From contig CM037593.1 in the NCBI GenBank assembly GCA_021018995.1, positions 45,087,810 through 45,151,809 of the forward strand: a stretch of 64,000 nucleotides of DNA, written 5' to 3'. Under the pieces are notes generated by a model. It was given only the letters and a program-made list of their open reading frames with translations. It was not told the origin of the DNA and did not search any database. Positions 1 to 50,653 of the stretch are shown one piece after another (within the stretch, counting starts at the first letter, position 1; each line of letters begins with the position of its first letter). A program made the translations under genes and the position numbers. This DNA is from Chloranthus sessilifolius. Taxonomy: Eukaryota; Streptophyta; Magnoliopsida; Chloranthales; Chloranthaceae.

Positions 1-664
1 GTGGTTAAGGGTTGGGAGACTTGGTCAAGGATAGACCGATTGTGCGCATGTGATGTGGCGCTTAATCTGATTACGCATACTGGTTAGGGTGTGCGATCGA
101 ATCTCGAGACGGTCTAAAGAAAGGGAGTTTGGTATAGAAGGGACTTATTGTGTGTTGATGATGTAGCATGTAATAGGATTGCGTGCATGGTTTTTGGTGT
201 GTAATTCGGGGTATGTCCCGAGTCTGGTTCTGAAACGCGAGACTATTGTTTCAGTCTGTATTTCGACTACATACTATTATTTCAGTATATAGTCTCCCAC
301 GTTAGAAATCTGAGCATAGAGCTATTATTTCAGCCTGTGTTCAGCCATATACTATTATTTCAGTTCATGGTTCCCATGTTAGGATTAGGGGGTCTGAGCC
401 ATAGAGCTATTGTTTCAACCTGTGTTCAGCCATGTACTATTATTTCAGTACATGGCTCCCACATTAGGGTTAGGGGGTCTGAGCCACAAAGCTATTGTTT
501 CAACCTGTGTTCAGCCATGTATTATTATTTTAGTGCATGGTCCCCACATTAGGGTTGTTAAAACTTCTAAAGAAGGTAAATCCTTTTTGAAAAGTCATGG
601 GCAAGGTCAAAGGTTGACTAAATGAATTTATATATTCTAAGAGAGTAAAATGGGGGTGTCTACA
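1..664 (-). mobile_element. 3' LTR (partial) of large minus-strand Ty3/gypsy element
   Basis: This segment matches 15150-15820 in the same orientation and ends in the same GGGGGTGTCTACA, which on the minus strand is the TG start of the LTR. The other end lies off the window. A pyrimidine run follows immediately at 665, which is a polypurine tract on the minus strand and is what should precede a 3' LTR. It contains part of the 85-bp tandem repeat found in all copies of this LTR tip. Short open frames here are by-products of that repeat. Confidence 0.7.
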
Positions 665-4691: not shown

Positions 4692-7646
4692 TGTAGACAC
4701 CCCCATTTTGCCCTCTCAGAATGTACAAATCTGTTAGATCAATCTTTGACCTCATAACCCTAATTGGGACCATATGCTGAAACAATAATATATGATTGAA
4801 CACGGACTGAAACAATAGCTTTGTGGCTTAGGACCCATGACCCTAACATAGGGACCATATACTGAAACAATAGTACATGACTAAACGCAAGTTGAAACAA
4901 TAGCTTTGTGGCTCAGATCCCAAGGCTATATACTAAAACAATAGTATATAGTCGAAATACAGACTGAAACAATAGTCTTGCATTTCAAACCCCTTTGTCC
5001 TAATGTGGGACCATATACTGAAACAATAATATATGGCTGGACACAGGCTGAAATAATAGCTTTATGGCTCAGGTCCCATAACCCTAACGCGGGGACCATA
5101 TACTGAAATAATAGTACATGACTGGACACAGGCTGAAACAATAGCTCTATGACTCAGGTCTCATAACCCTAACGCGGGGACCATACACTGAAACAACAGT
5201 ACATGACTGAACACAGGCTGAAATAATAGCTCTATGGCTCAGATCCCAACGAAGGGAGACTATATACTGAAACAATAGTATATAGTCGAAATACATACTG
5301 AAACAATAGTCTGGCATTTCAGACTCAACCCAGACAACCCCGAACTACATGCCTAAAATCACACGCGCAATTCGATCGCACGCCAAATCACTCTCGTGCA
5401 ATCAGTCCCCCTTCCAGACCAAACTCCCTTTCCCCAGACCATCTCGAGACTCAATCACACGCCTCATATGAAATGCGCGATCGGATTGAGCGCCCCACCA
5501 CCGGCGCATAATTGGCCTACGCCCGACCGAGTCTTACAGTCCTTAACCCCCAAGTTTCCTCGATTAAACGCTTTGAAAGAGGCGCTTAATTGAATTGCGC
5601 ACCTCACAATGGGTGCGCAATTAGTCCTAACATTGTTAGAACTAGGGAACTCGCTAAGCAAGTCAGTCGGTCGCTCACTAAGTCGGAGACCAACTCAAAG
5701 CGATTAAGCACCAAGAGACCGGCACGTAATTCAGTTAAACGCTTGAAATAGGGCGTTTAATTGGAGAAAAACCTATAAATTATTTTTTTCTTAATTCACC
5801 CAGGGCGGCTGGCAATTTTGAGAGAGAACAAATTTTTTTTTAGGGTTTCAAAATCAGAGAACTCTGAGAACGAACACATAGAGCAACCTAGCCATGATTT
5901 CGAAATTCAAGCTTCGAATCTTCGAGGTTTCTCTCCGCAACCCCGATCTTAGGTAAAAATCTTAGTTTTATACTTAGGATTTCTCTTAGTTTTAATTATT
6001 AATATTAGCTCGTAGTTTTAGACCGTAGCACCCCTCTTTTTTAGACCGTAATTTTTAATATCTAGTTCTAGTTCTTCGTTTCTAGAACCAATCCTTAATC
6101 TGACGGTCTAATTTACCGATCCTAGGCTTTAATTCTGTTCTAAAATCTTAATTTCTAGTCCTATCATTAATCTCTGATTCTAGTTCTTAGGTTCTAGAAC
6201 CAGTCATTAATCATACAGTCTAATTTTCTGATTTCAAACCCAAATTCAGTCCTAGAATTTTAAATTTTAGTTTTGATTTTTTAGTTCAATATTTTAAAAA
6301 TCCCAAATATTAATTCAGTTTTCTATAATTCTAGTTTCTCAATTCAATTCACAATTATAATCCCGAAATTGACTCTGAAAATCTAAAAGTACCATCTTTA
6401 TAATCTGAAATCCAATTTATCTTTAATATCAGCCACCCGATTTGCCCAAGGGAGCTTACGGAGGGTACTCGGTAATGAAGCTAATCCTCCTTAGCATAGC
6501 GGGGCCAAACCCCTTTTTTTAGAATTATTTAGTTACTTTAATTAGGATTAGAAAATCAGTTCCATAATTTCTTCTTAGAATTTTAGTATAATTAATTTAC
6601 ATGCTTTATTAGATCCTTAGAATAGTTGCTTCGATTATAACTCCAATAAAATTAATTCCTTTATTTTAATTAAATAATTCTAGCATAGTTAATTCCTCGC
6701 TTTATTAGATCTCAATATCATTAATTCCTTTTTCTTTTTTTTTAATTAGAATATTAGTATAATTAATTTATTACTCTTATCATAATTCCAGTCAAATTAG
6801 TTCCTTTATTTTAATTAAAATTTTAGTATGATTAATTCATTGTTGTAATTAGATTTCAAATATAGTTAATTTATTGCTTTAATCAGAATTGTAATAAAAT
6901 TAGCTTGTTTCCTTTAATTAGATTTTTTTTATATATAATTAATTCATTGCTTAAATCAAAGTTTTAGTAAAATCAGTCTTCTATTCCAATCAGAATTTCA
7001 ATACAATTAGTATACTTGCTTTACTTAAAATTTCAGTATAATTAGCATGCTTGATTTAATTAGTGTTTCATTAAGAATTAATATACTTGCATTCCTAGTA
7101 CAATTAGGAGGCTGATATCAATTAGACTTTTAGTAGTATTAGGACACTAAATTAATTGGAATTGTAATAAGATTAGGAAACTAATATTAATTAGACTTCT
7201 AATAGGACTGCAACACCTAAGATTAATTGGACTCCTGATAGAATTAGAATACTAGATTAAATCAACTATAATAAACTCACACGATTAAACTCACAACAAA
7301 ATTGGAAAATCTAAAATGATTAGAACTACAACAATTACAGGGAAAGAAAAGGAAAACTAAATTATCTAAATTATAAAGAAGAGCTATAGCTGCTGACGGT
7401 CGCAGGCGGATGATTTAGTAAAGAAGTAACCCACACCGGTTCTAAAGCATGATCGTTGACGTGTTGCAGCGTCGTTAAATATCTGCAACTAGCGATCGCA
7501 ACCAACTAGGAATCTTTCTAGAAAACACCCTTTTCTATTTTACCTTCAACATTCCAAACACCGCATCGCTAGAGTCCACTTGAACAGAATTGGAGCTACT
7601 AATTCAACGGGGGCCGAGAGGAATCCTGAAAAATCATGCACCAACA
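4692..7646 (+). mobile_element. Solo LTR of the Ty3/gypsy family, nested in inverse orientation
   Basis: It starts TGTAGACACC and ends CACCAACA. Both ends and several internal blocks match the reverse complement of 12606-15820: the 85-bp repeats, the block at 6430-6510 against 13420-13500, and 7380-7500 against 12760-12900. Flanks are GGGAA (4687-4691) and AGGAA (7647-7651), a 5-bp target duplication with one mismatch. No primer-binding site follows the right end and no polypurine tract precedes the left end. A TATA-like ACCTATAAAT lies near 5770. The 2.96 kb length fits its 3.2 kb partner with internal indels. Confidence 0.65.
4740..5300. repeat. 85-bp tandem repeats at the LTR tip
   Basis: Each unit carries two copies of the word CTATTRTTTCAG (seen here as CTGAAAYAATAG). 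About six to seven diverged units are present here, against three to four in the copies at 290-560, 15478-15700 and 15986-16230. Because 85 is not a multiple of three, the short open frames they create are not a conserved protein. Confidence 0.75.
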
Positions 7647-12605: not shown

Positions 12606-15600
12606 TGTTGGTGCGCGCTTTTTCTGGATTCCTTTCGGTCCCTGGAAGGAGTGGCTCAATTTGGTCCAAGTGGACTCTGGCAAAGGCGATGATGGAGAAA
12701 TAAATTAGGAAATATTAAATTGTTGAAAGTAAAAAGCAAATATTAAATAGAGAATACCTGAGAAGATGCGATCGCCAACTGTAGATATTTATCGACGCTA
12801 CAACAAGTCACTGATCACACTTTAAAGGGAAGCAGGGGCTTGTGGGTTGAAATCCTTTACTGGATCGTCCGCCGGCGAACGTCAGCAGCTGTGGGTTGCC
12901 TTTAGTCTAACTGGTTTGATTTTCCTATTCCTGCTGGGATTTTAATTAACTTGGTCTCCTAGTCCTACTGGGATTCTAATTAATTTAAATATCTTAATCT
13001 TACCAGGAATTAATTAAATCTCTTAATCCTATTAAGGGTCTAATTAATTTAAATATCTTAATCCTATTAGAAATCTAATTAATTAAGCCTCCTAATCCTA
13101 CTAGGAGTCTAATTAATTTAAATATTTTAATTTTATTAGAGGTCTAATTAAGTCTCCTAATCCTACTAGAAGTTTAACTAATTTGATGTCCTAATTATAC
13201 TAGGAATTTAATTAATTTAAGTACTTAACTTTCACTAACAACTAATTAACTTTCATAATCTCACTAGAAGTATAATTAATATTAGTCTCCTAATTGTACT
13301 AGGAATGCAAATATGTTAATTTTACTAAAACTCTAATTAATTAAAAATATGCTAATTCTGTTAAAATTCTAATTAAAGTAAATATACTAATTTTTACTAA
13401 AAATCTAAAAGGAGTTTTGCCTGCTATGCTAAGGAGAATCGGCCCCGTTCCCGGGTACCCTCCGTAAGCTCCATTGGGCAAATTAGGTGGCTAAAATTGA
13501 GAGAGACTAAATTTGAATTATAAAGTAATATTTTTTATAGATCGAGAGATTGATGATTGGTATTTGAGGGCTAAAAAAAAATAGGAATTGAGAACTAAAG
13601 CTATGAAGCGGACTTTAGGATTTAGAATGAAGACTAAAGCTAAAATCTAAGGACTAAAATCAGGATCGAAATTAGGAAAATTTAGATCATGAGATTAAAG
13701 ACCAGTTCTAGAGCCTAAGAACTACGACTTAAAAAAAAAAGTAACTGGTTCTAGAACTTAAGAACTAGAACCAGAGATTAAGAACTAAAGAATTACCTAA
13801 AGAATCATGTAAATCGTGCAGAAGGAAATTGTATAGAGGATAATTGTGTAAAGGAAAATTGTATAGAGGAAAATTGGTGGAGGGATGGCTAGGGGGTAAA
13901 GGTTTTATTTATAGGCTTTCACTAAAAATCCTAGTGTACCTCTAATTCCTAGTTCTTCTAAAGTTATAAAGTAAAGTCCTATTTCTAATAAAAGAAAAGA
14001 ATCCTATTTTCTAAAATAAAATAATAAAGGGACTAATCCTAATTCAACTAGGAGTTTTGAAATACGTCAATTTTTGCGTAGCGATCGAAAACTGGTCATA
14101 ACTTCTTCGATACTTGTAAGAATTGTGCATTTTTTGGCTTGTTGGAAAGCTACTTCGATAAGCTTTCAAACATGACTAATTTTGTACTAATAAAACTTTA
14201 TTTGATACTTCAAAATAAGCCAAATATAAAGTGACGGGATTGACAATTGAGAAAAGGTTGGGGATACCTAATTGGCTCTAGACTAAGGATTTGGGCAGGG
14301 ATTTCCTAAGGGCTGAATACTAAAACTTAAGAATTAAGAATTAGAATATAAATATTAAAACTATAAGAAACTATAAATTAAAACTAAAGGCTACAAAAAT
14401 CTAAGGACTGAAATCGGAGTCGAAATCAGAAAAATCAGACCGTAGGATTAAAGACTAGTCCCAGAAAACTAAGGATTGGAACAAGAGATTAATATTAGGA
14501 CTGAAAATTAAGGTATCGAGATAAAAACTAAGATTTAAGACAAAAAATTAGATAAAAAAATTAAAGACTAATTCTAGAACTAAGAACTGGAACCAGGGAT
14601 TAAAGTACAGATTAAAAAGGAGGCATTACGGTCTAAGACTGAAAATCGAAACTAATAATTAAGATTTAAAATCTAGACCAAAAAACTAAAGGCTAAAAAA
14701 AAATTGAAGACTATCCTCTAAAATCTAGAACTAGAAATTGGAAACTAAAACTAGAGGGGGATTACCTGAACCTAAGCACCGGAGAATTAGAAATCTCAAA
14801 GTCCTGGGCCTGGGGGCGAAGAACTCGAAACTCGAATCTCTAAGTTGTGTGTTGTAGGTCGTGGTAAAGGGGTCTATTTGTAGGTATTTTCCTAATTACG
14901 CACCCTGTGTGGTGCGCTTAATTAGGCGGTCAACTTCAATTGCGCGCCCTATTTTAGGCGTTTAATTGAATTGCGCGTCGGTTATCTGGCGCTTAATCGC
15001 TTTTGGTCGGTTACTGACTCAGTGAGCGACAGGCTGACTGGTTCAGTCGGGTGCCCTAGTTCTAATTGTATTAGAATTTAATTGCGCGCTAAAGTGGGTG
15101 CGCGCAACCAGATTACACGCCTAGTTTCAAGCGCTTAATCATAGAGCTCTGGCGATCAAGGATTGGGAGACTTGGTCGGGGATAGATCGATTGCGCGCTT
15201 GTGATGTGGTGTTTAATCCGATTGCGCGTACTGGTTAGCGCATGCGATTGAGTCTCGAGATGGTCTAAAGACAGGAAGTTTGGTCTAGAAGGGACTTATT
15301 GTGCGTCGGTGATGTGGCGTGTAATAAGATTGCGCACGTGATTTTTGGTGCATAATTCGGGGTATGTACTGAGCCTGGGTCTGAAATGTGAGACTATTGT
15401 TTCAATTTGCATTTCGACTACATACTATTATTTCAATTAATATATAGTCTCCCACATTGAGAATCTGAGCCACAGAGCTATTATTTCAGCCTGTGTTCAG
15501 TCATGTACTATTGTTTCAGTGCATGGTTCCCATGTTAGGGTTAAGGGGTCTGAGCCACAGAGCTATCGTTTCAGCCTGTGTTCAGCCATGTACTATTATT

Positions 15601-15820
15601 TCAGTGCATGATTCTCACATTAGGGTTAGGGGGTCTGAGCCACAGAGCTATTGTTTCAGCCTGTGTTCAGTTATATATTATTATTTCAGTGCATGATCCC
15701 CACATTAGGATTGTGAAAACTTTCAGAAAAGGTAAGTCCTTTCTGAAAAGTCACGGGTAAGGTCAAATATTGACCAAACGAATTTGTATATTCCAAGAGA
15801 GCAAAATGGGGGTGTCTACA
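12606..15820 (-). mobile_element. 5' LTR of the large minus-strand Ty3/gypsy element
   Basis: On the minus strand it runs from TGTAGACACC (15820) to CACCAACA (12606), the standard TG...CA ends, 3,215 bp. It holds the 85-bp repeat array at the U3 tip (15478-15720), GCGC-word-rich U3 (14900-15350), AT-rich stretches of repeated TTAATTAGGA-like words (12940-13400) and a conserved block at 13420-13500. Just inside is the gag leader. The left flank of the whole insertion lies outside the window, so no target duplication could be compared; the base run right of it is CTCGT. Confidence 0.75.
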
Positions 15821-16493
15821 CTCGTGTAAGGGTCTAACACCTGAAAAGTAAAGTTAGTAAAGTAAAGTTTTGGCAACAATCAAATGATTGCTACAATAAT
15901 TAAAATAGAGATATTGAAAAACAGGTTAAGCCCATTAAAAATATTTTAATGTGCAACCATGTATCGTCACAATTGAAACTTGGAGCTATTATTTCAGACT
16001 GTGTTCAGCCATATACTATTATTTCAGTATATAGTTCCCACGTTAGGGTTAAGGGGTCTGAGCCACAGAGTTATTGTTTCAGCCTGTGTTCAGCCATGTA
16101 TTATTGTTTCAGTGCATGATTCTCATATTAGGGTTAGGGGGTCTGAGCCACAGAGCTATTGTTTCAGCCTATGTTCAGCCATGTACTATTATTTCAGTGC
16201 ATGGTCCCCACATTAGGATTGTGAAAACTTCCAGAGAAGGTAAACCCTTTCCGAAAAGTCACGGACAAGGTCAAAGGTTGACCAAACGAATTTGTATATT
16301 CCAAGAGGGCAAAATGGGGGTGTCTACACTCGTGTAAGGGTCTAACACCTGAAAAGTAAAGTTAGTAAAGTAAAGTTTTGGCAACAATCAATCGATTGCA
16401 ACAATAATTAAAATAGAGAAATTGTAAAACAGGTTCAACCCATTAAAAATATTTTAATGTGCAACCATGTATCGTCACAATTGAAACTTAGAG
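15478..16493. repeat. 508-bp tandem duplication of LTR tip plus flank
   Basis: Unit 1 (15478-15985) and unit 2 (15986-16493) align without net length change. Each has 343 bp of LTR ending TCTACA followed by 165 bp of flank beginning CTCGTGTAAGG. The junction is at a GAG shared by both breakpoints. Unit 2 is therefore not a separate insertion but a copy of the LTR edge with adjacent host DNA. Confidence 0.85.
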
Positions 16494-22897: not shown

Positions 22898-22906
22898 AAT
22901 AAAAAA
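22898..22906. repeat. Left 9-bp target-site duplication of the MULE
   Basis: AATAAAAAA immediately precedes the left inverted repeat and is identical to 31164-31172, immediately after the right one. Nine base pairs is the Mutator-superfamily length. The sequence is A-rich, so some chance agreement is possible. Confidence 0.75.
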
Positions 22907-23016
22907 GGAAATTTACACTTTCGGCCCTATAATTTTGCTTATTTGCAAAAATGACCTTGTAGTTTCAAACTTTGCGCAAAAGGCCAGCTCCAAGCCAAGC
23001 CCTTTCCACGTCAGCA
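22907..23016 (+). repeat. Left terminal inverted repeat of the MULE
   Basis: About 110 bp that match the reverse complement of 31053-31163 with few mismatches. The left copy starts GGAAATTTACAC; the right, read inward, starts GGGAAATATGCAC. Confidence 0.9.
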
Positions 23017-23202
23017 ATCATATATCCTCTTCTTTATATATAGATGTGAATTCCTTTTGATATGAGATATGAGATTTCTCCTCCAATATTAAAATTTCAT
23101 ATATTTTATTTTCTTTGTATCAGTACAGACTACACTGTAAGCTGCAACACAAGAGTACTGACAAGATAGTACTTTTTTTAGTAGTTATAAAAAATTATAA
23201 CC

Positions 23203-23425
23203 CTAAACCCTATCGCTATCGCTACCTTAAGATAGCGGCGCTAACATAAAGTAGCGATACGCTGCCTTAAGTTAGCGCAGCTAACTTAAGATAGCGATAC
23301 GCTACCTTATGGTAGCGGTCGCTAATTTAGGATAGCGGCGCTACCTTAAGATAATGTCCCGCTACCTTATGTTAGCGACGCTATCTTAAGGTAGCGATAC
23401 TCTACCTTAAGTCAGCGTCGCGCTG
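23203..23425. repeat. Palindrome array 1, about ten units of 19-21 bp
   Basis: Head-to-tail units each approximate the palindrome GCTATCTTAAGATAGC or its variant GCTACCTTAAGGTAGC, separated by 3-5-bp linkers such as GATAC. The array ends about 70 bp before the transposase start. A splice acceptor-like TTTATATTTTAG follows it just before the ATG, so it may lie in a 5' untranslated intron. It is similar in kind to the arrays at 28660 and 30505. Confidence 0.85.
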
Positions 23426-23490
23426 TATAATTAAATAATATGAAGAAGTTAGTTTGACAATTTAATATTTCATTATTTTTTATATTTTAG

Positions 23491-26243
23491 GATGAAATGG
23501 ATGTTCCCGTACTTTGTCATTTTGATGGTGTTCGGGTCGGTGATAATACTTACAACAGTGGACATCGAAAGATTGTCGTTGTTAAAGAGAAGATATCATT
23601 TGATCAATTTAAGCAGAAAATATACAATGTCAGTAGGACTCGACCGGAAGAACATTCAATTACACTATCTATTTCTTTGTGCATGGAAAAGGAGTTAGTG
23701 TTTGCCGAATTGTCCGACTTTGATGATCTTGCGAACTTATTTAAAGCATATCGTATTAGTGATGGTGTGATAAATGTTTATATCGAAAAATTATTAGCAA
23801 CTCTTATGACCGAAATTTTATCATCTGTTGAAGTATTTCAACCGTTCTAGCAGGAAACAAACGAAGATGATAAAGAAATTGAAGAAAGCGTCAGATTAGG
23901 ATATGATGATAGTGTAAAACCAGAACATTCGATTGAAAATCAAGAAATACGGTTTGAAGAGGAGAACTTCGATGCACCGATGATAGTCGACGATGATAGA
24001 AATATAAATATAGGATTTTACCCCTATCGTAGACCTTTGGAGCAACCTTTTTCAGACATTCGAATAAGAAAAGGCAATGAAGATGAAAGATATTATCCTC
24101 AAATAAATCCGATGCATGATGCATCTCAGCTTAACTTCAAATCGCTAAACAATATATATGACTGGAATCAGTGAGAAACATTTTTAAGACCCCTTAGTCC
24201 ATATTAATGGCCTTCTGAACCAATAGCTTCAGAGCAAACGATAATCGAGCCTTCAACAGAACAACCTCTCGCACCTCAAACATTCCCACCTCGGCCAACC
24301 TCAACCGAAACAATTGTATTTCAACCAAACATACCTCGACGGACTCAATTTCAATCATGTAATAATCATCTAGTCGATGATGGTGATAGTGATCCTGAAA
24401 ATAATGAAGCACCGTCGTCGCCCACTTCCCGTGTTGATACTAATAGGAGAATTGATGAACCTCTGGTGGACGATGACTATAATCTTAATGATTCAGAGAG
24501 CAAGTATATGGATTCAGATAATAAAGAACTTTATAAAGGGGGCCATTAACTGTTAGTCAGGCATTCAGAAATAAAAAATTCTTTCAAAAAACTCTTAAAG
24601 AGTTTGCAATGGCAAATAATTTTTAAATTAAACTAATAAAAATTAGTCATCTTCGAGTTACGGTGAAGTGTGTTGAAGTAGGGTGTGTTTGGCGAATACA
24701 TGCATAAAAATTGGTCGGTGTGGACACGTTTGTTGTGAAGACTTTCCGCCAGAAACATACGTGTGAAATGTCAACTTTCGAAAGAGGACATCGGCAGTGT
24801 ACGACATCGTGGATAGCTTCCTTCGTGAGAGATAAATTATTAAAAGGACTTGACGAGAGCTCTGCTTCAATAATTTTTTATATTGAGAAAAAATATGGTG
24901 TAACAGTAAGCTACTAGAAAGCATTGAGAGGGAAAGAAATAACGTTGAATGATATTCGAGGTAGCTAGAAGGAGCAATTTAGGATGTTACCGTCCTATGT
25001 AGCCGAAGTACAGAGGGTTGATCCAGACGTACAGACTGAATTGTGTCGCGAGCCTGATAATGTCTTTCAAAGGTTCTTCGTAGCATTTAGACTTTGCATT
25101 AGGAGCTTCCGTAATACTTTACCAAAAATAATTGCGGTAGATGGGACACATTTGCGCGGTCTTTACAAGGGAGTGTCATTAATAGCTACAGGGATGGACG
25201 GGAATAGATATTTATTCCCTATAGCGTTCAGCATTGTACCCAAAGAAAATGAAGATCATTAGACATGCTTCCTTGATCTATTAGAGAGACGCATAATCAA
25301 AAACTTTTAAGAGCAGTTTGTATTGATATCAGACCGGCAGAAGGGATTGATGGAAGCTGTGCATAATGTTTTTCCTAACACCTTTCACAGCTATTGTATG
25401 CGACACCTAGCTTTGAATCTTTTTAATACATATAAGGATACAATCTCCCGACCGCTGTTCTGGGTTGCTGCTCGTGCATTCTCGAAGGCAAAATTTAAAA
25501 GAATTTTATGAAAAATAGAAGACGAGGCCCCCTCGAAATGTACAATATGGATTAAAGAAGTCGGTGACCATTTCTGGGCGCGTGCATATTTTCCAGGAAA
25601 GAGTTATGATATGCTAATAATAAATATAGCAGAAAATATTAATAGTGTATTGAAGATAGCAAGAGAGGAACCGATCGTAATAATGCTAGAAACCATTCAC
25701 ACGAAGGTAGCCGAATTCTACCTTCGGTGTTAGGAGGAAGGAAATAAAATGACACACGTGTTGACACCGATGGCGGAAGACCACCTAACACGAAACTCAT
25801 GGTGGGCCCGTCGAAAGAATGTTGTTCCCTATAGTCGCGATACATTTCAAGTTAAACGGGGGCAATACACTCACAGTATCGATCTAGAGAAATGAACGTG
25901 CACATATAGACGTTGGGTTATCCTTGGATTACCATATTCGCATGCGATCGCTGCATTATCACGCAAGAATAGAGACAAAGAGATTCCTCAGTTTTGTGAG
26001 CATCGGTTTATCAGTACCTTATTTAAAAAAACTTACAAAGAACACTTTGTTTCAATCGTTGATAAGCACCAATGGACTGTTTTAAGGGAAGACATCGAAG
26101 TTTTGCCTCCCCATAGGATACATCACGCCAGTGGCCTAAAGAAAATAAGGATAAGATCTAAAGGCGAAGTTCAACCACTACGATATAAAAATTATGACGA
26201 ATACGGATATAACCGTTGCTCATGTAAATTTGTTAGAATATGA
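23491..26243 (+). pseudogene. mudrA: MURA-type transposase pseudogene (MuDR family)
   Basis: In life it would bind the inverted repeats and cut DNA in the nucleus. The N-terminal part (MDVPVLCHFDGVRVGDNTYN, from 23497) has a stop at 23848-23850 and then an acidic region to 24174. After a frame change near 24550-24650 come a zinc-binding-type segment with VGCVWRIHA, the first catalytic Asp in KIIAVDGTHLRG, the second in VLISDRQKGLME, FHSYCMRHL, FWARAYFPGKSYD, and a SWIM-like C-x-H region (TCTYRRWVILGLPYSHAI). A basic tail ends at TGA 26241-26243. At least nine in-frame stops are present, several at expected Trp codons (for example EDH*TCFL). The order and length fit a full-length but dead transposase. 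Confidence 0.9.
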
Positions 26244-26435
26244 AACTTATTTCATAGTGTAATTTATAAAAATGAGATTAGATCGAATATTTCTTGAACT
26301 TGTCAAATTTTTCAAAATTTTTTTTATTTTTAATCTTGCCGAATTATTATTAAAACCCAAATTGGTGACTATGAACTTGCAATCTATCATTGAACTTATC
26401 TCAGCCCAATGAAACATGCCGATAATTAGAGGTGT

Positions 26436-26514
26436 AAGATCATTTAAACGGTTAGGAGAGTTCAGTTCCCAATTTAAATTAGGATGGTGCTCAAAATGGT
26501 GTTTAAATGATCTT
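26436..26514. repeat. Inverted repeat downstream of the transposase
   Basis: AAGATCATTTAAAC (26436-26449) and its exact inverse GTTTAAATGATCTT (26501-26514) form 14-bp arms round a 51-base loop. It may be a small MITE or part of the 3' transcript end. Confidence 0.6.
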
Positions 26515-26530
26515 CCACCATTAAACTTAG

Positions 26531-27000
26531 AATTTTTATCTCACACCATTGAAGCGTGATTTATTATTATGTGTTGTGGCATCAGGTGCAAGGGTAAAAA
26601 TGCATCGAGTATGATTGAGTTAAGTTGATCCGATTAAAAAATAGGGTCATGCCGGGTGAAGCGTATTAATATTCGGGCTAAGTATGGGCTAGTTTCAAGA
26701 GTCCCGATTATAGCTCGCCCTTTTAAGACCCGACCCAAAATGGCCCGGCTCGACGCAACCCAACCCATTAAGACCCCTACGGTGATAGGTTAACCTAACT
26801 TTAATGGTATCAACAAGCTAGATGTACGGGTCATCCATACATAGCATACTTACCATGTTATTCCTTAATTTGGATCATCCATATGGTATTCCTTCAATTA
26901 AATTTTTATCTCACACCATTAATTGAAGTGTTATTTATTATTAAGCATTGTGGCATCAGGTGTAAGGTAGGCATCAGTTGCAAGGGTAAAAAAATTCAGT
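26531..27000 (+). repeat. Direct repeat pair flanking an unexplained segment
   Basis: TTTTTATCTCACACCATT followed by GTGTTATTTATTATTA-like and TGTGGCATCAGGTG text occurs at about 26530-26605 and again at about 26905-26990, with about 300 bp of GC-richer sequence between. The direct copies suggest a local duplication or an insertion with a long flanking repeat. Confidence 0.5.
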
Positions 27001-27147
27001 AATTTTTTTATTGTGTTTACTGAGTTAGATCGAAACAAAAAAAAAACTATAGAAAAAATTAATCTCTAAACAAAAATTTACACAGAATTTAAACAATAAA
27101 AATTTATATAGAATTTACACAAAAACATTTAAGTGAAAGAAAAATAA

Positions 27148-30100
27148 CTACTCGGCCACCTTTCCAAATGTGCACAAGGAATGTCCGATTTCGGCTCGTA
27201 ATTGCTGTATATTTTTCTCTTCAAAATCTATTCCCCACCGTTCGAAAAAGTACTCAAATACTTTAATACAAAAACACCACAGTCTCAACCATTGTGTTGG
27301 CGGGGAAGATCGACACTGTCCATCACCGTTAGCTACCACGATTGATCGAGAGCAGAACTCAATCCGACAATGTAAAGAAGTCGTGGCAAGTGATGCAACA
27401 AACTTTCTTTGTGCAATTCGAACTTCCTTGAACACTCTGGGTTGGTCGGGTCTATCAGCTTGACATCGCGGTTTACTAGAGACACAATAGCCAATGCCCA
27501 ATGTTGATATCTCTGGCTATGCATTGAAAAATAAATTTGTGTGTAACTAGAGATCTAATTAGTACTGTGTTTATTAAGAAATATGAAAAGTGTTAATATA
27601 ATCTAAAAAAAAACTTATCGTCCCACAATCGACAGCCTTAATACCGCGTGTCGTACTCTTAAACAAGACCTCAAGCGGTTTGCACTGGTAATGAACATTC
27701 CACCTGTCACAGTACACCTCCCATTTATCAAAGTAGTTGAGTGGCTCTAGATTTTCATCAGCCAGATATTTACTAAATTTTGAGTGATCCGCTATAATCA
27801 GAGTCTGTAATTAATTATTAGAATAATTCATTAATTGAAAGGCACGAGTTACGTAAATAAATAAACGCAGATAAATAAATAAATAAAATAATTGATACAT
27901 ACCAGGGCCGAGGCCGATACAAAGAAGCTCTTGTCTGCCATTTCCGTAAAGATAGAGTCGTTTTTACTCTCTAAGATTTTGAAGTATGCATCCATCACTT
28001 CATTGTCAAGCCACTCCCTTCCTTTGAGGACCCTTAAATTCTCTACAGTGATGTCGACACCAAAGATAGTATTGACAAGCGCAGGATCATCTTCCGCAGG
28101 CTGGTTCCACATACTGCGCATAAATTTATACTCCATAGACTGTGGCTCTTCTTCTTCACTTTCAACGATGACCAATCTTTGTCGTTTTACACCTTTTTTA
28201 GTTGGCATCTTTCTTTTCTTCCGTGCTTGCAACTCGTACCCCGTGCCCTTCTTTTCTAAGTCGACTTTATTCTTTTAAGCAGACAGCTTCACTAGTAGTG
28301 ATTTAAGTGATGCCGACTGCGACTCGTAAGTAGGCTGGGTTACTGGAGGCTCAACTATATTGTCAATCAGTGGTTGGAGTGTAGTGGGATGAGAGGAAGT
28401 CTTGGGTGGAGACGATTGAGAGTAAATGGGTTCAGAGGAAGAAGGTTGTGGTGCAGATGGTTGAGTGGTAGAAGGCTTAGGTAAAGAGGGTTTAGAAGAT
28501 TTGGGTGCGGAGGCTTGAGTGGTAAAAGGCTTAGGTAAAGAGGGCTCACGAGGTTGAGAGAGAGGGGACTTGGGGGTAACAAAAGTATCAAAGAGTACTG
28601 AAGATAGCACATCATCCTATAAAGTTACAAAAAAAGAAGTTAAATTAGTTCATTCATCATATCTACTATCTTAGGATAGCGTTTCGCTATCTTTGGATAG
28701 TGTTCCGTTATCTTAGGATAGTGTTCTGCGATCTTAAGATAGCGGATCGCTATTTTAAATAGCGTTTCACTATCTTATGATAGCGTTTCACTACCTTAGT
28801 TAGCGGAATGCTATCCTAAGATAGCAGAATGCTAATTTAAAATAGCGATCCGCTATCTTAAGATCGCGGAACGCTAACTAAAATTAGCGGATAACTATTT
28901 TAAGATAGCGGATGGCTACCTTAAATAACTAAAAATGATATAAAAAAAAATTATATATTTTATTTTTTAAGATAGCTATTTTAAGTAAAAAATAATAATA
29001 TAAAATGATAGCTATTTTTATATTTTTAAGATAGCTTTACGGTTATTAGTGTTAATAATCTAAAAAAATGATGTAAAAAAAAATTATATACCTTTGATAA
29101 ATGAGATTTTACTACTTCAAGATCGTTCTTCATAGCAACATTTTCGCCATTCAAGTAAGCTACTTGATTTTTTAAAGACCCTACTTTCACTTCTAATATT
29201 TTCTTTTCTCTTCTGAGTTGCTCAATAGTTATCGCATGTCCTTTTAAAATAGCAAAGGCGTGATTGAAATCGTCTTTCATTTCTCTAACTTACATTCAGA
29301 GAGACAAACACTCTTTACGAAGCTCCGTTACTTCGTTTATAAGTTGGGGATGCCTAGTAGGGTGTTCTCTTGTTGGCTGCTTCATACTTTCCGATTCTTT
29401 CCCCTTTGATTTTACTTGGTGACGTAGAACAACCTTATAATCATCAATATCGTCACTGTTATCATCGTTATCGTTATCGTCATCGTCATCATCCTCATCC
29501 TTATTGCGTATCTCTTTTGCTCTTTTTTGGGTCAAGTGTTCTTGTTCTTTTTTCCATTCTCTTTCCATATCTCTTTGCCTGAAGAATAGCCGAATTGATC
29601 GATATTGTGATTCGTATTTTTCAACATTGAGGTTGACGATGACCGGAGAGTTAAGAATTTTTTCTCGGTAATAATTTAGATTACGGCCAAATTTCATTGC
29701 TTCCCATTTCAACAGCCTCGGAAAGGGACTTTTCAGCTGACTATGAGCGGGGTGGACTTCTGAAAAGTGCTCTAACGCCCAAATCTGTAAGGCGATAATG
29801 TACCCATAGATATTATATTGCCTTTTTAGATTCAGTTTTGCCGCTTCTCTTCTGTCTATCGCTTTACATATGCAGTCAACTAAATTTTTATATACTATCA
29901 ATCCCCCACAAATATTCGTTGGATTTTTCAAGGTTATCGACTAAATCCAAGTATTTACTATCCACTACCTGGTATGTATCTGAAAGTAAGAACGAGTATA
30001 CGAGAAAGAACAACGATAATTTCAAAAATTCATCGTTGGAAAGATCGGCACTATTAACAATTTGTTCAATAAGAGACCTTTTAGTTGACTGTCCCCAAAA

Positions 30101-30426
30101 GAATTTATATCAAATAGTTTCCGCCACTCTTATAGCCACATGCTCAGTCTCAGAACCTTTTAACATATTAAGGCCTAAAATCAATGATATATTGGCTTCT
30201 TCCAGAACTACTTTGGTATTCTTTACCTTGAATATGTTATCTTTAACCCAGAGCTCAATATCGCGTCAACGAAGTCTCCAATAAAAACTAAATTCTCTGT
30301 AATATTAAATAGATAATCAAAAATTGATTCATCTAATATCTTCTTCCTCTCTTCGTTACAATGCATGTAAAATTTTTTAACACTAACCCTTAAACATTTC
30401 TCGTAGGCCTTTAATTGTATAGACAT
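27148..30426 (-). pseudogene. DUF1985/ULP1-like cysteine protease pseudogene of the MULE
   Basis: Minus strand, several exons. From the start: MSIQLKAYEKCLRVSVKKFY (30426), then decayed DUF1985 text to about 29760 with NEYLWGI and YNIYGYIIALQIWALEHFSE, an Asp-rich tract, a coiled-coil exon (29026-29280) with a GT donor near 29098, a Pro/Ser/Thr linker repeat (28275-28615), then the C48 protease: LRVLKGREWLDNEVMDAYFK (28232-27849), SKFSKYLADENLEPLNYFDK (about 27800-27610), and the catalytic part with HWALAIVSLVNRDVKLIDP (His, Asp) and DCGVFVLK (Cys) near 27300. A TGA stands just before DCG and a frameshift follows it; an in-frame stop occurs in DUF1985. Such genes are known cargo of Kaonashi-type MULEs and resemble SUMO proteases; activity here is unlikely. 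Confidence 0.85.
28660..28935. repeat. Palindrome array 2, about 12-13 units of 21 bp
   Basis: Units are near GCTATCTTAAGATAGC plus a 5-bp linker (GTTTC, GTTCC, GGATC, GGAAC, GGAAT). Several cores are perfect 14-16-bp palindromes. It lies within an intron of the protease gene: the upstream coiled-coil exon ends in AAAG/GTATAT near 29098 and the next exon starts after TTTATAG near 28618. Pieces of the motif continue weakly to about 29035. Confidence 0.9.
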
Positions 30427-30504
30427 CTTAGAATCAGAGAGTGGTAACTGTATAGATCATAAAAATAACTAAGTAATTTTTAAAATAATTTTAAAAATTT
30501 ATCA

Positions 30505-30835
30505 CTTCTTACCGCTATCTTAGAGTAACGTTCCGCTACGTTACCGCTATCTTAGCATAGCGGAACACCCTCTTAGAGTAGCGTTTCGCCATCTTAGAGT
30601 AGCGTTCTGCTATCTTAGCGTAGCGGAATGTCATCTTAGAGTAGCATTCCGCTTTCTTAATGTAGCGAACCGCCATCTTAGAGTAGTGTTCCACTTTCTT
30701 AACGTAGCGGACCGCTATCTTAGAGTAGCGTTCCGCTTTCTTAGCATAGCGGACCGCCATCTTAGAGTAGTATTCCGCTACCCTAAGATGACGGTCCGCT
30801 ACACTAAGATAGTGGTAACGTAGCGTACTAGGATA
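30505..30835. repeat. Palindrome array 3, about 15 units of 21 bp
   Basis: Units follow GCTATCTTAGAGTAGCG plus TTCC or GACC, with the two linker types alternating over much of the array. It ends about 80 bp upstream of the protease start codon at 30426. A donor-like CGGTAAGA is seen on the minus strand at its inner edge. On the minus strand one frame is open for 74 codons as a 7-residue repeat (AVRYAKK, AERYSKI and variants), a consequence of the 21-bp period. Confidence 0.9.
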
Positions 30836-31052
30836 GAATGAAAGTGGGGAATAAAATTTTCCTAAAAAGTAAAAAAAATTACTTGAAAAAAAATTACCTC
30901 TTTGTCACCGCTTCGTCACCACTTCGTTGCCTTTGCCGCTCTCTCAGTAATTACAGCAGTAATTGCGAATAGTGAAAAGTGAAAAGTTTTTAATTGTTTT
31001 AAAATATAAGGAATTTTAAAACACAAGGGTACTTGAGACATTTCAATGTTGG

Positions 31053-31163
31053 TGCTGACGTGGAAAGGGCTTGGCTTGGAGCTGGCCTTTTGCGCAAGAT
31101 TTGAAATTAGAGGGCCGTTTTTGCAAATAAGAAAAATTATAGGGCCGAAAGTGCATATTTCCC
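31053..31163 (-). repeat. Right terminal inverted repeat of the MULE
   Basis: The inverse partner of 22907-23016. It is followed directly by the target duplication AATAAAAAA (31164-31172). Confidence 0.9.
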
Positions 31164-40637: not shown

Positions 40638-43600
40638 TGTAACAACCCCGACTTTTTTCGATAATGTTGAATCATTGACCTTCAATGATAATGCGACTGT
40701 TTAGACCGGTTTGACTTTGGTCAAACCTCTGATGCCAATGATGCGGCCTCTGACCCACCTATCTTAATTGGGTAAATTCACTCAAACACAAATCTGAAGA
40801 CCAATTCCTAATTCGAGCACTAAATTGGTACTCGAACTCTTTGGTGGAGTGTGTGTGTGGCATGCGACTCGAACCGGGATTGGACCAGGTTCGATCCCAC
40901 CCTTTTCAAGTACCATAGTTATGACATATGACATTAGTTAATAAATAAATTAGAACGAGATGGATGATGTACACGTGATCAAGGACGATCATGTGCATGC
41001 TAGGCATGAACCTAACCCGAGCCCAATAACCCAAACTAATGTGTGTCTATATGTGTAGGTGTACATTGTCTAGGTATGTATATGTATGTATGTGTATTCA
41101 TGTGAGCCATTTCGCAAGCCACGTGATGGCACCATGGTCAAGAACTATGTTAGCAAATAAGAGGTTTAGGAATCAAAATGTGTTTAATGCATTTAGGTTT
41201 CATTTTTGGACAATTAGACAAGAACCCTTACATCGATTCTTAGTGTAGCGGCCTTATGCTAAATCGACCCCAACAAATATAAAAGAGGCCCTTTCAGATT
41301 TTTTTTGAGAGCCCATTTGAGAAAAGAGAGAGAGAGAGAGCCGAGAGGAGAGAGGAGAGAGGAGAGGAGCTCGGCTGTGGGAGAACCGAAAGAGGGAGAG
41401 AAGGAAAAAGGGGCGAGAGGAAGAAAACCCCCATCATCTTCTCCTCATTTGTTTCCCTTTGTGAAACCCAACCATCGATCTCCTCCCAAACACCGGACGA
41501 TCAAAGAGAGAGGTGGAATTTGAGCCATTGGATGAACGACGAGCTACGGAGCCGATTTCCCTCAATTTTGGCCATCGAAATCTCCGCATGCACAACTTAT
41601 GAAAGTAAGTGTCGTAGGATCATCATATGAATTCCGATTGGTGGAATCTCCGCATGCACAACAGTGATTTCCGTCGATTTTTACGTCATAGACCCCGCAT
41701 GCATGGTTAAAGAAGGTAAGATTGATGGTTTAATAGTGTGGAATTTGTTTTATAATTAGTTTAGATTCATAAGGAGTTGATCTTCCAAGAATTGGAGTTT
41801 TTCGGAAAATTGGGGAAGGAAGAAGAAATCTGAAAACACAGTCCCTACAACAAGTAGAAAGTCGCTACAGTGAGTTTGCTTCTGAGTACCTCGCTACAAC
41901 GAGTGCCCCAACTAGTTTTTAGGCAAAAAAATTTGGGCAAAACTTGTTGCAGCAAGGTTATGGAATTTTGAACACCTCGCTGTAGCGAGCTACAAACTCG
42001 CTACAGCGAGCTAGGGCTTGGTGTCGACACCAGCTCGGTATTTTGGTCATAACTTTTGAGTGGGAAGTTGGATTGATGCGATTTGTACGACGTTGGAAAG
42101 AGGACAACGAGACCCATAACTTGTATGAAATTACAAATGCATGAATCAAAAGTTTTAAAGGTAAAAATTGAGCGGGAAGTTGGGTCAAGTTCTGAGTTAG
42201 CATGAACTTGACCATTTCCACTTTGATTTTGAGAAAACATTTAAATACGTCAAAGTTATTAGTAATTAGATTCAATCCTTAATACCTCATTGTACATATG
42301 ATGTAGATTGGGAACGAGAGGCCGTTAATAAGGACCTTGCGTTGCTTTTGCACGACTCCGAACCCGAGGTAGGAAAATTTGATCTTCGATTCATAGACTC
42401 TAGGATGTAATGGAATGTGAACCTTAATATCTTGTGTTTGAAATCTGACACGTTGAAAATGAATTTGAGTTTTCAAGTATCGAATTCTTATATAAACCAT
42501 GGATTTGAATTTGGAATAGTTAGGGAAATTCGATGCTCAATATCATTTTTTATTTAGATTCATAGATCTTATGGTAGAATTGAACTGATAAGAACTGATA
42601 GGAACTTAGATTCTGATATGAATATGATATGAACTGATACGAACTGATACAAACTGATATGAACTGATATGAATTAATATGAATATGGAATCTGTTAGAA
42701 TCTGATATGAATTGATTTGAGCATTGAATCTAATTTGAATTTAGAAAAATTGAACTTTGAACCGACAAGTGAGCATTGTATTAAACACTCTGATTTTTGA
42801 ACTCCGAATATGAACTCTATTTTTAAATCTGATTTGAATTTCACAACCCAGTTCCATTTGATTTCGATTCATCGATTTGACGATTGGAACATGAATTTGA
42901 AATTGAATTGAATTTATACTCTTCGAAATTGAATGGGACTTGAACTGAAAAGTGAACCTTGCATCAAATCTTCGAATGTGAACTTAGAACTTTGCCTTTT
43001 GAATACAAACTCCGAAATCAAATCTGAATATGAGTATGAACGTGAACTTTGAACTTTGAATGAAAATGTAAATTTGAACATTGAATCCGACCTTAAATCC
43101 TTGAAACTCTGGATAGACACTTTTGATATGAACTTCAAACATGAGCTCTGAACATGACCATTGAATATGAACTTGCACATTGCATCAACTTTGAACTTTG
43201 AGTTTGGAATTCTGAATTGTATGATGAGATGAGCGGATCCGTGATTTGGACAGGCATGACGGTGAATCCATGATTTTGACCGGCATGGCGCTGAATCCAT
43301 GATTTGGACTAGTACGACAGTGAATCTGTGATTTGGACTGGCACGACTCAGTCTCTTTCTGAACTCTGATATGAATTCTGAACTCTAAAACTCTGAATAA
43401 GAACTTTGAATATGAAACTCTGAATTCAGTAAGAAGTTGGAGATAAATGAGAAAACGAATAAATGAATAAGTGGATAAAGAATTATGTGAAATCTGAAAT
43501 TCGAAGCTTAAACTCCGAAATTGAACTCTGAGTTTCGAACTCTGAATCTGTATATGAATCTTGAATCCAAACTCTGATTCTGAATTTGAATCTTAAACTC

Positions 43601-44401
43601 TGAATCCGAATCTGAAAATTGAACTTATGTGAACATCGATTTTGGCATCGAACTCTAGAATTTGAACCCAAAATTGAACTTGAACCATGACATTGAAATC
43701 TGAATTAGAACTCAGATATCGAAATTCTGAATTGAGAACTTGGATTTTGCCTATGATTTTGAACTTAAGACTGTGCGGATTTCGTTTTCACGAAAATGTC
43801 TTTGAAATTTTTTTCCCTGTTTGATATGAAAAATACTTCTGGAACTTAGCCTTCTCTTTTGATTTGAAAATGCCCTTTTGATTATAATCATTGAACCTAT
43901 GCATTGATCTGATTAGATGTGAATTGGTATTGATATTTTTCTACTGAGCTTAGACTGTTAGCTCATCCCGACATTTATGTCACAAGTGTTGATAGTAGAC
44001 AGGTCTTTGAGCTTGGGAACGAACTCGATTACGTGTCGGAAGTAGCAGGAAAACTTCCGCCCCAGGATCTTCGTCCATAACTGGTGAATTATGGAATTTG
44101 TAGAGTTAGCCTTTGTATAGTTAGTAGTAATTTAAACCACTGTTTAGGTGACAGTCGGCCGTCACTGATGGTATACTTTTGTTTTAATTTCTGTTCAGTA
44201 CATATTGGAATTTATCTTTGTTTAATGCGATACGAAATCTTTTGTTTTCATATTCCGCAGTGCACATGATATCTAATCTTTGATTCCCGCCCATCTGTGT
44301 AAGAAGAAAAGAAAAAATTTGTTCTGATTTTCAAATACCGGATGGTTCGATCTTCCCCGAAATCCGTGTTTTTGTCTAGGGGGAAAATCGAGTTGTCACA
44401 G
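40638..44401 (+). mobile_element. 5' LTR of the gag-only element
   Basis: TGTAACAACCCC...GTTGTCACA, 3,764 bp. TATA box AAATATAAAAGAGG near 41275, GA-rich leader after it, palindromic CTCGCTGTAGCGAG blocks (41850-42020), a block of TGAATCTGAA words (42560-43760), a 32-bp-type tandem repeat (43240-43350) and the common block GCTTAGACTGTTAGCTCA near 43948. Confidence 0.9.
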
Positions 44402-49800: not shown

Positions 49801-50653
49801 TCTAAATCTGAATTGGAACCTTGAATCCAAACTCTGATTCCGAATCTGAATCTTAAACTCTGAATCCGAATCTGAAAATCGATCTAATGTGAACATCGAT
49901 TTTGACATCGAACTCTAGAATTTGAACCCCGACACTGAACGTGAACCATGACATTGAAATCTGAATTAGAACTCAGATATTGAAATTTTGAATTGAGAAC
50001 TTGGATTTGCCTACGATTTTGAACTCAAGACTGTGCGGATTTCGTTTTCACGAAAATGTCTTTGAAAATTTGTCCCTGTTTAATATGAAAAATACTTCTG
50101 AAACTTAGTCTTCTCTTTTGATTTGAAAATGCTCTTTTGATTATAATCATTGATGCATTGATTTGATTAGATGTCAGTTGATATTGATATTTTCCTACTG
50201 AGCGTAGACTGTTAGCTCATCCTAACATTTATGTCGCAGGGACTGACAGTAGACAGGTCTTTGAGCTTGGGAACGGACCCAATTACGTTCCGGAAGTAGT
50301 AGGAAAACTTTCACCCTAGGATCTTCGTCTATAACTGGTGGGTTATGAAATTTGTAGAGTTAGCCTTTGTATAGTTAGTAGTAATTTAAACCACTGTTTA
50401 GGTGACGGTCGGCCTTCACCGGTGGTATACTTTTATTTTAATTTCTATTCTGTACATATTGAAATCTATCTTTGTTTAATACCATACTAAATATGTTGTT
50501 TTCATATTCCGCTGTGCACATGATATTTGATTTTTGATTCCCGCCCATCCGTGTAAGAAGAAAAGAAAAATTTGTTCTGATTTTCGAACACCGGACCGTC
50601 CGGTCTTCCCCGAAATCCAAGTTTTTGTCTAAGGGGAAAATCGGGTCGTCACA
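46814..50653 (+). mobile_element. 3' LTR of the gag-only element
   Basis: TTTAACAAAGC...GGTCGTCACA, 3,840 bp, collinear with 40638-44401. The first TG is mutated to TT. It carries about 85 bp near 47825-47910 absent from the 5' LTR, while the TATA region (47440), palindromic blocks (48085-48220) and tandem repeat (49450-49580) correspond. Confidence 0.9.

Follow-up and report, generated by a model that had tools for sequence, protein, structure and literature searches.

Arabidopsis VANDALs are MULEs in which a protein with DUF1985, a domain of VANC, binds arrays of family-specific motifs and lifts silencing (PMC5735166). In VANDAL21, the motif repeats occupy introns of VANC and VANB and the region upstream of VANA, the transposase gene (PMC5735166). 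The VANC21 motif is YAGTATTAY and the VANC6 motifs are AGTTGTCC and AGTTGTAC (PMC5735166, PMC10398659); DUF287 is also shown in VANC proteins in a figure legend (Fig. 5 of PMC5735166). A preliminary description of the locus studied here had treated its arrays as foreign to accounts of MULEs, a view that is outdated, since VANDAL MULEs possess tandem repeats targeted by VANC (PMC5735166). ULP1 domains in TIR-MULEs have already been reported for melon and grapevine (PMC2528002, PMC13317346), and a 2026 review describes ULP1-carrying VANCs (KIU) as also recognising noncoding motifs (PMC13317346). Within the portions of these sources drawn on here, no mention of palindromic arrays was found for KI or ULP1 MULEs, and the strings "tandem" and "palindrom" have no occurrence in the consulted text of PMC2528002.

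A further parallel is offered by CACTA (Spm) elements, which belong to another superfamily and use another protein, TnpA. Repeated subterminal sites in both orientations are a likeness between the TnpA system and the arrays described below, and we know of no intronic arrays in CACTA (Spm) elements. TnpA, encoded by the element, is described as activating that element together with DNA demethylation (PMC10398659).

The window, meaning the whole 64-kb stretch of DNA analysed, contains a MULE at positions 22907-31163 with terminal repeats of 110 bp (Table 1). A MULE/Mutator transposase together with a 9-bp target-site duplication, whose low-complexity word AATAAAAAA gives it moderate weight, places the element among MULEs, and its long TIRs (100/110 identical) place it among TIR-MULEs. 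With VANDALs, as described, it shares a gene for a DUF1985 protein (PMC5735166, PMC10398659) and short, family-specific motifs in dense noncoding arrays, located upstream of the transposase gene and in an intron, here a predicted one, of the DUF1985 gene; in both systems the motif differs between related families and the DUF1985 gene evolves faster than the transposase gene. The window element shows neither the absent or degenerate TIRs reported for VANDALs, its own being long and intact, nor their same-orientation motifs: VANC motifs are 8-9 bp long and point one way, as they do for VANC21, whereas the sites here are 16-bp palindromes at steps of 19-21 bp, with alternating half-sites about one helical turn apart. 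In further contrast to VANC as described, a ULP1 domain is present, while DUF287 was not found in the pieces scanned. An unrelated element type, AT9TSD1, is reported to carry the same motif as VANDALs, a situation that loci L002 and L003 perhaps repeat here. As in Kaonashi (KI) elements and the ULP1-carrying MULEs of melon, rice and grapevine (PMC2528002, PMC13317346), the ULP1 gene runs opposite to mudrA; KI-MULEs are described as non-TIR elements, in contrast to the long TIRs seen here.

Table 1. Features of the MULE in the 64-kb window (positions counted from the first base of the window).
Feature	Position	Strand	Basis or remark
9-bp target-site duplication, left copy (AATAAAAAA)	22898..22906		read from sequence; same 9 bases on right flank
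Left terminal inverted repeat, 110 bp	22907..23016	+	100/110 identical to right TIR
Array 1, 10 palindromic units, steps 19/21, upstream of transposase	23221..23416		direct reading, TRF and unit chaining
MULE transposase gene, in-frame stops and frame changes	23497..26243	+	open frames, Pfam domains, sister alignment
ULP1 (Peptidase_C48) exon region, HW...D and DCG motifs, frame broken	27180..27560	-	PF02902 on read-through
Predicted intron, DUF1985-ULP gene	28617..29091	-	GT donor 29091, AG acceptor 28617, sequence only
Array 2, about 13 palindromic units, step 21 (two of 20), in predicted intron	28665..28930		direct reading, TRF and unit chaining
Coiled-coil-like segment after DUF1985, putative dimerisation region	29026..29289	-	weak profile matches
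DUF1985 / plant mobile domain region, frame broken	29560..30265	-	PF09331 and PF10536
Array 3, 13-15 palindromic units, step 21, upstream of DUF1985-ULP gene	30514..30829		main run to 30813, then ragged
Right terminal inverted repeat, 110 bp	31053..31162	-	1 extra base (31163) precedes duplication
9-bp target-site duplication, right copy	31164..31172		matches left copy

The three arrays were recovered by direct reading and by TRF, with periods of 19-21, 40-42, 60 and 83-84. Counted on both strands with at most two mismatches, the word GCTANCTTANNNTAGC occurs 58 times in the window, compared with 3.6 +/- 2.2 expected from shuffles, none of which (0/100) reached this number. Several quantitative statements of the preliminary description needed adjustment. 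The word family, thought to be confined to the arrays, has 55 of its 58 matches there and three elsewhere in the window; the unit counts of about 10, 12 and 15 hold for array 1 (10), while chaining gives 13 for each of arrays 2 and 3, and a looser scan of array 3 yields 15 units, one of them out of register. A strict 21-bp period, claimed for two arrays, applies to array 3 (12/12 steps of its main run), and array 2 has 10 of 12 steps of 21 bp and two of 20 bp; array 1 alternates between 19 and 21 with a single step of 20, so its period is not strict. As to positions relative to genes, the gap from array 1 to the transposase ATG (23497) is 72-81 bp and that from array 3 to the DUF1985 ATG (30426, minus strand) is 79-88 bp, the proposed figure being 70-80 bp, and array 2 falls inside the predicted GT-AG intron (29091-28617) of the protease gene. 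It is the consensus that is palindromic, least so in array 3, while single units are imperfect; even dyads with at least 7/8 paired positions number 8 in the arrays (4, 4 and 0 for arrays 1-3) and 101 in the rest of the window. The CpG observed/expected ratio is 1.40-1.74 in the arrays versus 0.97 in the remaining element, a difference left uninterpreted because the array word itself contains CG.

Spacing was also considered in terms of helical turns. With 8 overlapping loci left out, 318 of 387 neighbour distances of up to 70 bp deviate by no more than 1.5 bp from a multiple of 10.5, as do 62 of the 86 above 24 bp, against a baseline of one third of the integers from 8 to 70. The 32-bp steps (29) fit three turns and the 19-bp steps (41) do not. 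Strict two-turn phasing was rejected, and any phasing claim is weak, because the 19-bp steps misfit and spacings are copied by duplication.

The transposase gene gave matches to PF10551 (5.7e-06) and PF00872 (8.3e-06) in one piece, and the minus-strand gene combines DUF1985, PMD and Peptidase_C48 domains. Its ULP1 region matches PF02902 at 1.6e-06 on a read-through with X at stops, and SENP2 at 4.4e-04 by phmmer, while the profile search returned no ULP1 match in single open frames of the window gene. In the DUF1985 region, single frames match PF09331 (2.7e-05) and PF10536 (3.2e-07), both below Pfam's gathering score; on read-through, PF10536 rises above it (2.4e-10) and PF09331 stands at 1.3e-04. 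DUF1985, a domain of the VANC family, is likewise found in the sister elements L088 (2.5e-07, below the gathering score, as in the window) and L089 (6.9e-09, above it). The open frames of L088 also match PMD (1.3e-09), C48 (2.7e-14) and MULE (5.3e-16) profiles. The coiled-coil-like segment has a weak best match of 0.006 to coiled-coil families, and the corresponding region of L089 matches bZIP_1 (4e-04) and other coiled coils, all below cut-offs. The DUF287 profile search covered separate pieces of the window and sister genes and gave no match.

Family members were sought, as had been suggested, in the single source genome of 2.17 Gb. Of the 29 other TIR copies, 28 have an array at the same place, 174-294 bp inside the TIR, four of them with only 2-3 units; L026 lacks one. 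These figures refer to 30 TIR loci, the best of 40 scored among 2672 candidates, with two elements represented by both of their ends (L014/L016 and L033/L034); the scan used a PWM built from the arrays of the window, so the result for its own copy (L005) is circular. The window element, L035 and L036 share all three array places, upstream of the transposase gene, upstream of the DUF1985-ULP gene and in its intron. A search for the unit alone showed that the word is common genome-wide: exact word 14-mers number 1965 versus 5 for a reversed control. Two of the four readable word matches, L002 and L003, have no family TIR within 1.5 kb, and the word is thus not limited to this MULE family. A two-unit pattern had 0 matches in viral contigs.

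The sister elements differ from the window in characteristic half-site positions, although the counts include overlapping dyads and the half-sites are not all independent. Position 2 is C in the three arrays of the window (19/20, 22/26 and 26/30) versus A in the four arrays of L088 (16/16, 15/16, 39/42 and 12/16), the fourth lying between the genes. The T-to-A change at position 5 of L088 affects every half-site in two arrays (16/16 and 16/16) and some of the half-sites in the other two (27/42 and 7/16). In L089, position 7 is C in 13/16, 4/6 and 0/4 half-sites, leaving one of its three arrays without C, and parts of its arrays still align with those of the window. Profile distances overlap, ranging from 0.15 to 0.36 for other positions of the same element and from 0.16 to 0.56 for the same position in another subfamily. 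Between the window and L088, transposase DNA is 79.6% identical over 2765 bp, the TIRs 79-86% and the DUF1985-ULP gene 66-73%, with no array match reported in this comparison. By hand comparison, the layout of L088 is repeated by listed exact sister words on C1 near the DUF1985 matches at 62577472 and 1886031. Of the 50 places listed for the sister word on C1, 17 have a listed DUF1985 match (three matches) within 8 kb, and the other 33 have none at that distance among the 150 matches listed.

Across DUF1985 relatives with 64-83% identity, at least two tandem units of the word family lie upstream in 19 of 20, the exception (L084) having a single unit; these 20 were hand-picked to span the identity range, out of 150 scored among 5431 candidates, and are not a random sample. 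Place and a 19-21-bp step are conserved while the unit drifts, with the 16-bp word differing between DUF1985 clades. On a tree of 37 DUF1985 rows (36 different), position 5 = A and position 7 = C require one change each, position 2 = A requires four and the period three. Eight word classes, fixed with their thresholds after the words had been seen, require 8 changes on this tree versus a shuffled mean of 17.0, with 0/200 shuffles as low; the Mantel r is 0.68, a value reached in 0/5000 permutations. Such an association is expected from descent alone because the gene and its adjacent array are linked. The association analysis excludes three duplicate loci set aside in advance (L016, L033 and L078) as well as L008, with 61 protein columns, and L084, which had no filtered units. 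It retains both L079 and L089, which represent one element, and its entries for L015, L068, L069, L071, L076 and L081 rest on 3-4 units. TRF found no array of the window's word family at 30 other DUF1985 loci, which score higher against Pfam. A different 16-bp palindrome array beside the DUF1985 gene of L056 was considered as a second code; by eye it lies in an inserted LTR-like stretch, and it was not counted.

The arrays belong to the family as a whole and keep to fixed noncoding positions, and their word differs between DUF1985 clades. Of the roles proposed in the preliminary description, binding sites for a regulator, its leading suggestion, are best supported. The outcomes it had named as refuting mostly turned out in its favour, since 28 of 29 other TIR copies have the array and place and step are kept while the word drifts, and its interpretation as a whole is supported in part. 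The arrays are probably bound in many copies by a VANC-like anti-silencing factor, namely the DUF1985-PMD-coiled-coil-ULP1 protein that the element itself encodes. Such a protein would bind the palindromic sites as a dimer, with half-sites spaced by about one helical turn (10-11 bp), and would owe its specificity to the dense clustering of sites. By analogy with VANC21 and VANC6, the bound protein would clear silencing marks from its element as well as from related non-autonomous copies, and the attached ULP1 domain might, speculatively, remove SUMO from silencing factors. The joint change of array word and DUF1985-protease gene by branch looks like a self-recognition code for escaping silencing. 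A fuller scheme, possible though doubtful as a whole, is that long-TIR MULEs use a palindromic form of the VANC code. In it, DUF1985-ULP1 dimers would line the arrays, where half-sites recur with every helical turn, and the resulting nucleoprotein stretch would deliver a deSUMOylase to silent chromatin; clades within one genome would have switched the word across an element's arrays, each freeing only its own copies.

Sites for the MULE transposase, serving transposition or its regulation, are an unlikely alternative reading of the arrays. Two arrays are subterminal, about 200 bp inside each TIR, short derivatives (the deletion derivative L037 and the 1.6-kb element L001) keep both TIRs and arrays, and two transposon proteins, CACTA TnpA and maize MURA, have been associated with reduced methylation of the elements that encode them (PMC10398659). 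The third array, however, is intronic and the fourth of L088 lies between the genes, both far from the ends; the TIRs of the window element and L088 are still 79-86% identical where the word has changed, and in both sister comparisons made the transposase gene is the more slowly evolving of the two genes. The transposase gene is nevertheless linked to the arrays too, so the transposase may have a part. A host transcription factor using the arrays as promoter or enhancer would suit arrays 1 and 3, about 70-90 bp before the two start codons, but one array is intronic, and a shared host factor does not demand that clades of one genome carry different words at the same places or that position 2 change in concert in the four arrays of L088; we regard this as very unlikely.

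Hairpin-forming repeats that feed small-RNA silencing found little support and appear highly improbable. Although transcripts would fold strongly (z of -12.4 for array 1, -19.6 for array 2 and -13.0 for array 3, each for one strand), any array made of palindromic units would do the same, arms within a unit agree no better than arms from different units, and unit order is mostly irrelevant, the real order being matched or beaten by 3, 49, 3, 19, 91 and 34 of 100 shuffles (three arrays on two strands). That a neutral satellite was seeded in an ancestor and spread with the element is scarcely credible, given the same places in 28/29 other copies, a format and step kept across clades with different words, and the position 2 change in all four L088 arrays; this is despite unit numbers that vary between arrays, 40/42-bp higher-order repeats, the word in other repeats (L002 and L003) and an L089 word change missing from one of three arrays.

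Recognition by the element's own protein would bear on a question of the VANDAL field, namely how one TE-encoded protein recognises only its own family. VANC-like arrays stand here beside long intact TIRs, and the palindromic code, if true, would separate VANC-type anti-silencing from TIR loss, two properties hitherto linked. One genome with several clades and different simple palindromic words at the same places provides a natural set for protein-word swaps, and some copies have the relevant exon frames open.

All three arrays, whose positions in the preliminary description were confirmed by direct reading and a tandem-repeat listing, are enclosed by a single MULE with TIRs of 110 bp (100/110 identical) and a flanking 9-bp duplication. 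An array does lie just before each gene's start, array 1 ending 72–81 bp before the transposase ATG and array 3 beginning 79–88 bp before the DUF1985-ULP ATG, and array 2 lies, as described, in a predicted intron of the protease gene (29091–28617). With both genes broken, this copy would serve solely as a target.

Features of the window and of loci fetched from the source genome
Sequence	Position	Strand	Feature
Window	22907–31163		MULE
Window		plus	transposase gene, MURA-type, broken
Window		minus	DUF1985-ULP gene: DUF1985/PMD, coiled-coil-like stretch, ULP1 protease domain; broken
Window	23221–23416		array 1
Window	28665–28930		array 2
Window	30514–30829		array 3
Window	42581–43735; 48808–50001		10-, 29- and 26-bp tandem repeats in the same order, about 6.2 kb apart
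Window	309–556; 5007–5280; 15464–15709; 15983–16217		arrays of one 85-bp tandem unit
L088	3974–4391		large fourth array lying between the genes' 3' ends, roughly 20 copies in 20-bp steps
L001	614–2228		non-autonomous 1.6-kb element, its interior by eye mostly TAGCGGCCGCTA-like half-sites with A/T runs between
L002	1373–1970		different repeat, CGTATCGTCCGATAC-rich ends, same array word, no family TIR in view
L003	1107–1660		as L002
L069	1112–1145	gene on +	short same-orientation single half-site run, 11-bp period
L075	1072–1105	gene on +	as L069
L077	839–871	gene on +	as L069
L056	2765–3208		other 16-bp palindrome array TGGTGATCGATCACCA, periods 19–21 and 42, beside a DUF1985 gene

Chaining of 16-bp units gave 10, 13 and 13 units for arrays 1, 2 and 3. 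The strict 21-bp period ascribed to two arrays holds for every step of the main run of array 3 but not for array 2, where two steps of 20 interrupt the 21s; array 1 has steps of 19 and 21, with one of 20. In the window, the degenerate word matches 58 times when both strands are counted, whereas 3.6 matches would be expected; all but three of the 58 lie in the arrays. The consensus of 66 half-sites is CGCTATCTT, the least variable letters being the dyad-adjacent T (0.97) and the C (0.94), T (0.88) and A (0.91) of GCTA. Near-perfect palindromes are rare among single units (8 dyads of at least 7/8 in the arrays, 0 in array 3), and, among the window arrays' half-sites, arms agree no better within units than between different units. 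This pattern fits independent half-sites for a protein, rather than base-pairing arms.

Across the 2.17-Gb source genome, the 14-bp word core occurs 1965 times, compared with 5 for a reversed control. Thirty TIR loci, the best of 40 scored from 2672 candidates, were examined; besides the window's own copy, 28 of the 29 further loci carry arrays of the same word family, which comprise 2–16 units and begin 174–294 bp inward of the TIR, at a median of roughly 220 bp. Under scoring that penalised steps other than 19–21, their steps, window copy excluded, were 21 (143), 19 (40), 20 (4), 18 (2), 24 (2) and 17 (1). Two fully read elements, L035 and L036, each have three arrays at positions matching those of the window MULE, and TIRs and arrays are retained in a deletion derivative (L037) and in the small non-autonomous L001 (about 1.6 kb). 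The TIRs of L001 and L004 are more diverged (9–10/43 differ). The word is not wholly confined to the family: L002 and L003 carry it although the 3 kb read there show no family TIR, which means that one or more further repeats bear it.

A search with the family DUF1985 yielded 150 scored copies (64–100% identity) out of 5431 candidates, from which 20 relatives chosen to span 64–83% identity were fetched. Position is kept while the word drifts: at least two tandem word-family units lie upstream in 19/20 (only two copies in L076), L084 having one unit, and the family TIR is recognisable in 18/20 (≤15/43 differing). The window's clade has a GCTAYCTTAGNGTAGC-like word with step 21 and some 32; L079–L081, a GCTATYCCAGGATAGC-like word with step 21; L068–L070 and L072–L075, mixed GCTAAY/GATAAY with step 20; L077–L078 and, in shorter form, L071 and L076, GATAACTTAAGTTATC with step 20; and L082–L083, a core resembling the window's, in steps of 20 and 21. 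In a phylogenetic tree built from 37 DUF1985 rows, these classes track clades; four main branches have SH-aLRT values of 97–100%, the L071/L076/L077/L088 branch 90, and L082–L083 is weak. The tree requires one change each at half-site positions 7 and 5, three in period and four at position 2, and the protein–word Mantel correlation is 0.68 (0/5000 permutations). Taken alone, this association shows that the array word changes at clade level, not recognition, because gene and array are linked. The 11-bp runs in L069, L075 and L077 suggest that the basic duplicated unit is the half-site.

L088, a fully read sister element, has four arrays, one each before DUF1985, inside the intron, in the space separating the two genes, and before the transposase; no counterpart of the intergenic array was seen in the window's element. 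With a consensus accepting C and A equally at position 2, L088 has A in 82/90 half-sites summed over its arrays, and C is found in 67/76 in the window's three arrays, 63/70 in L035 and 42/44 in L036. Position 5 of L088 is A in 16/16, 16/16, 27/42 and 7/16 by array, so the arrays between the genes and beside the transposase have changed only in part there; in L089, position 7 is C in 2/3 arrays. Exact sister words number 452 in the genome (reversed control, 0). Around two other DUF1985 matches on sequence C1, those listed lie at −349 to −149, +3359 to +3639 and +6386 to +6506 (62577472) and at +3431 to +3552 and +6868 to +7008 (1886031), offsets that by manual comparison resemble L088's. Of 50 sister-word places listed on C1, 17 have a listed DUF1985 match no more than 8 kb away. 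Mean profile distance is 0.22 between positions within an element versus 0.32 when one position is compared across subfamilies, which supports concerted array change only on average, with ranges that overlap. Between the window and L088, identity is 79.6% along 2765 bp of the transposase gene, 79–86% for the TIRs and 66–73% for the DUF1985-ULP gene, with no match reported for the array regions; for L089, the values are 82–83% (transposase) and 71–72% (DUF1985-ULP), and the arrays align in parts. Hosaka et al. describe VANA conservation much above that of VANC (PMC5735166).

Contrary to the preliminary description, such arrays do figure in accounts of MULEs: in Arabidopsis VANDAL21, the motif YAGTATTAY, bound by VANC21, forms dense tandem repeats before VANA21 as well as in introns of VANC21 and VANB21 (PMC5735166). 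VANC proteins have DUF1985 and DUF287 domains, and the related VANC6, with the motif AGTTGTCC/AC, likewise acts on AT9TSD1, an unrelated element with that motif (PMC5735166); the repeat in L002 and L003 is possibly a similar parasite of the code. ULP1-carrying VANCs, termed KIU, are stated in a 2026 review to act similarly (PMC13317346), and TIR-MULEs with ULP1 are already known from melon and grapevine (PMC2528002). In light of these accounts, the palindrome arrays would be a variant of a known system, differing from VANDAL/VANC in having long TIRs, palindromic sites and near-helical half-site spacing (of 387 distances between neighbours, 318 deviate by no more than 1.5 bp from a multiple of 10.5). 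Neither "palindrom" nor "inverted" appears in the main text of PMC5735166, and that of PMC10398659 lacks "palindrom". By analogy with VANC, we infer that the DUF1985-ULP protein probably binds the arrays and removes marks: it would most likely read the palindromic units, most likely dimerising via its coiled coil (weak coiled-coil matches), specificity would come from many sites in a row, and silent-mark removal would follow.

DUF1985 is very abundant in the source genome (4046 first-look candidates; 150/150 scored exceed Pfam's cut-off), and the 30 loci read carry no array of the window's word. By eye, the L056 array lies inside an inserted LTR-like stretch. Within the window, one of the four 85-bp-unit arrays is, by eye, opposite in orientation, and the two similarly ordered repeat tracts are perhaps repeat-rich LTRs of one retrotransposon.
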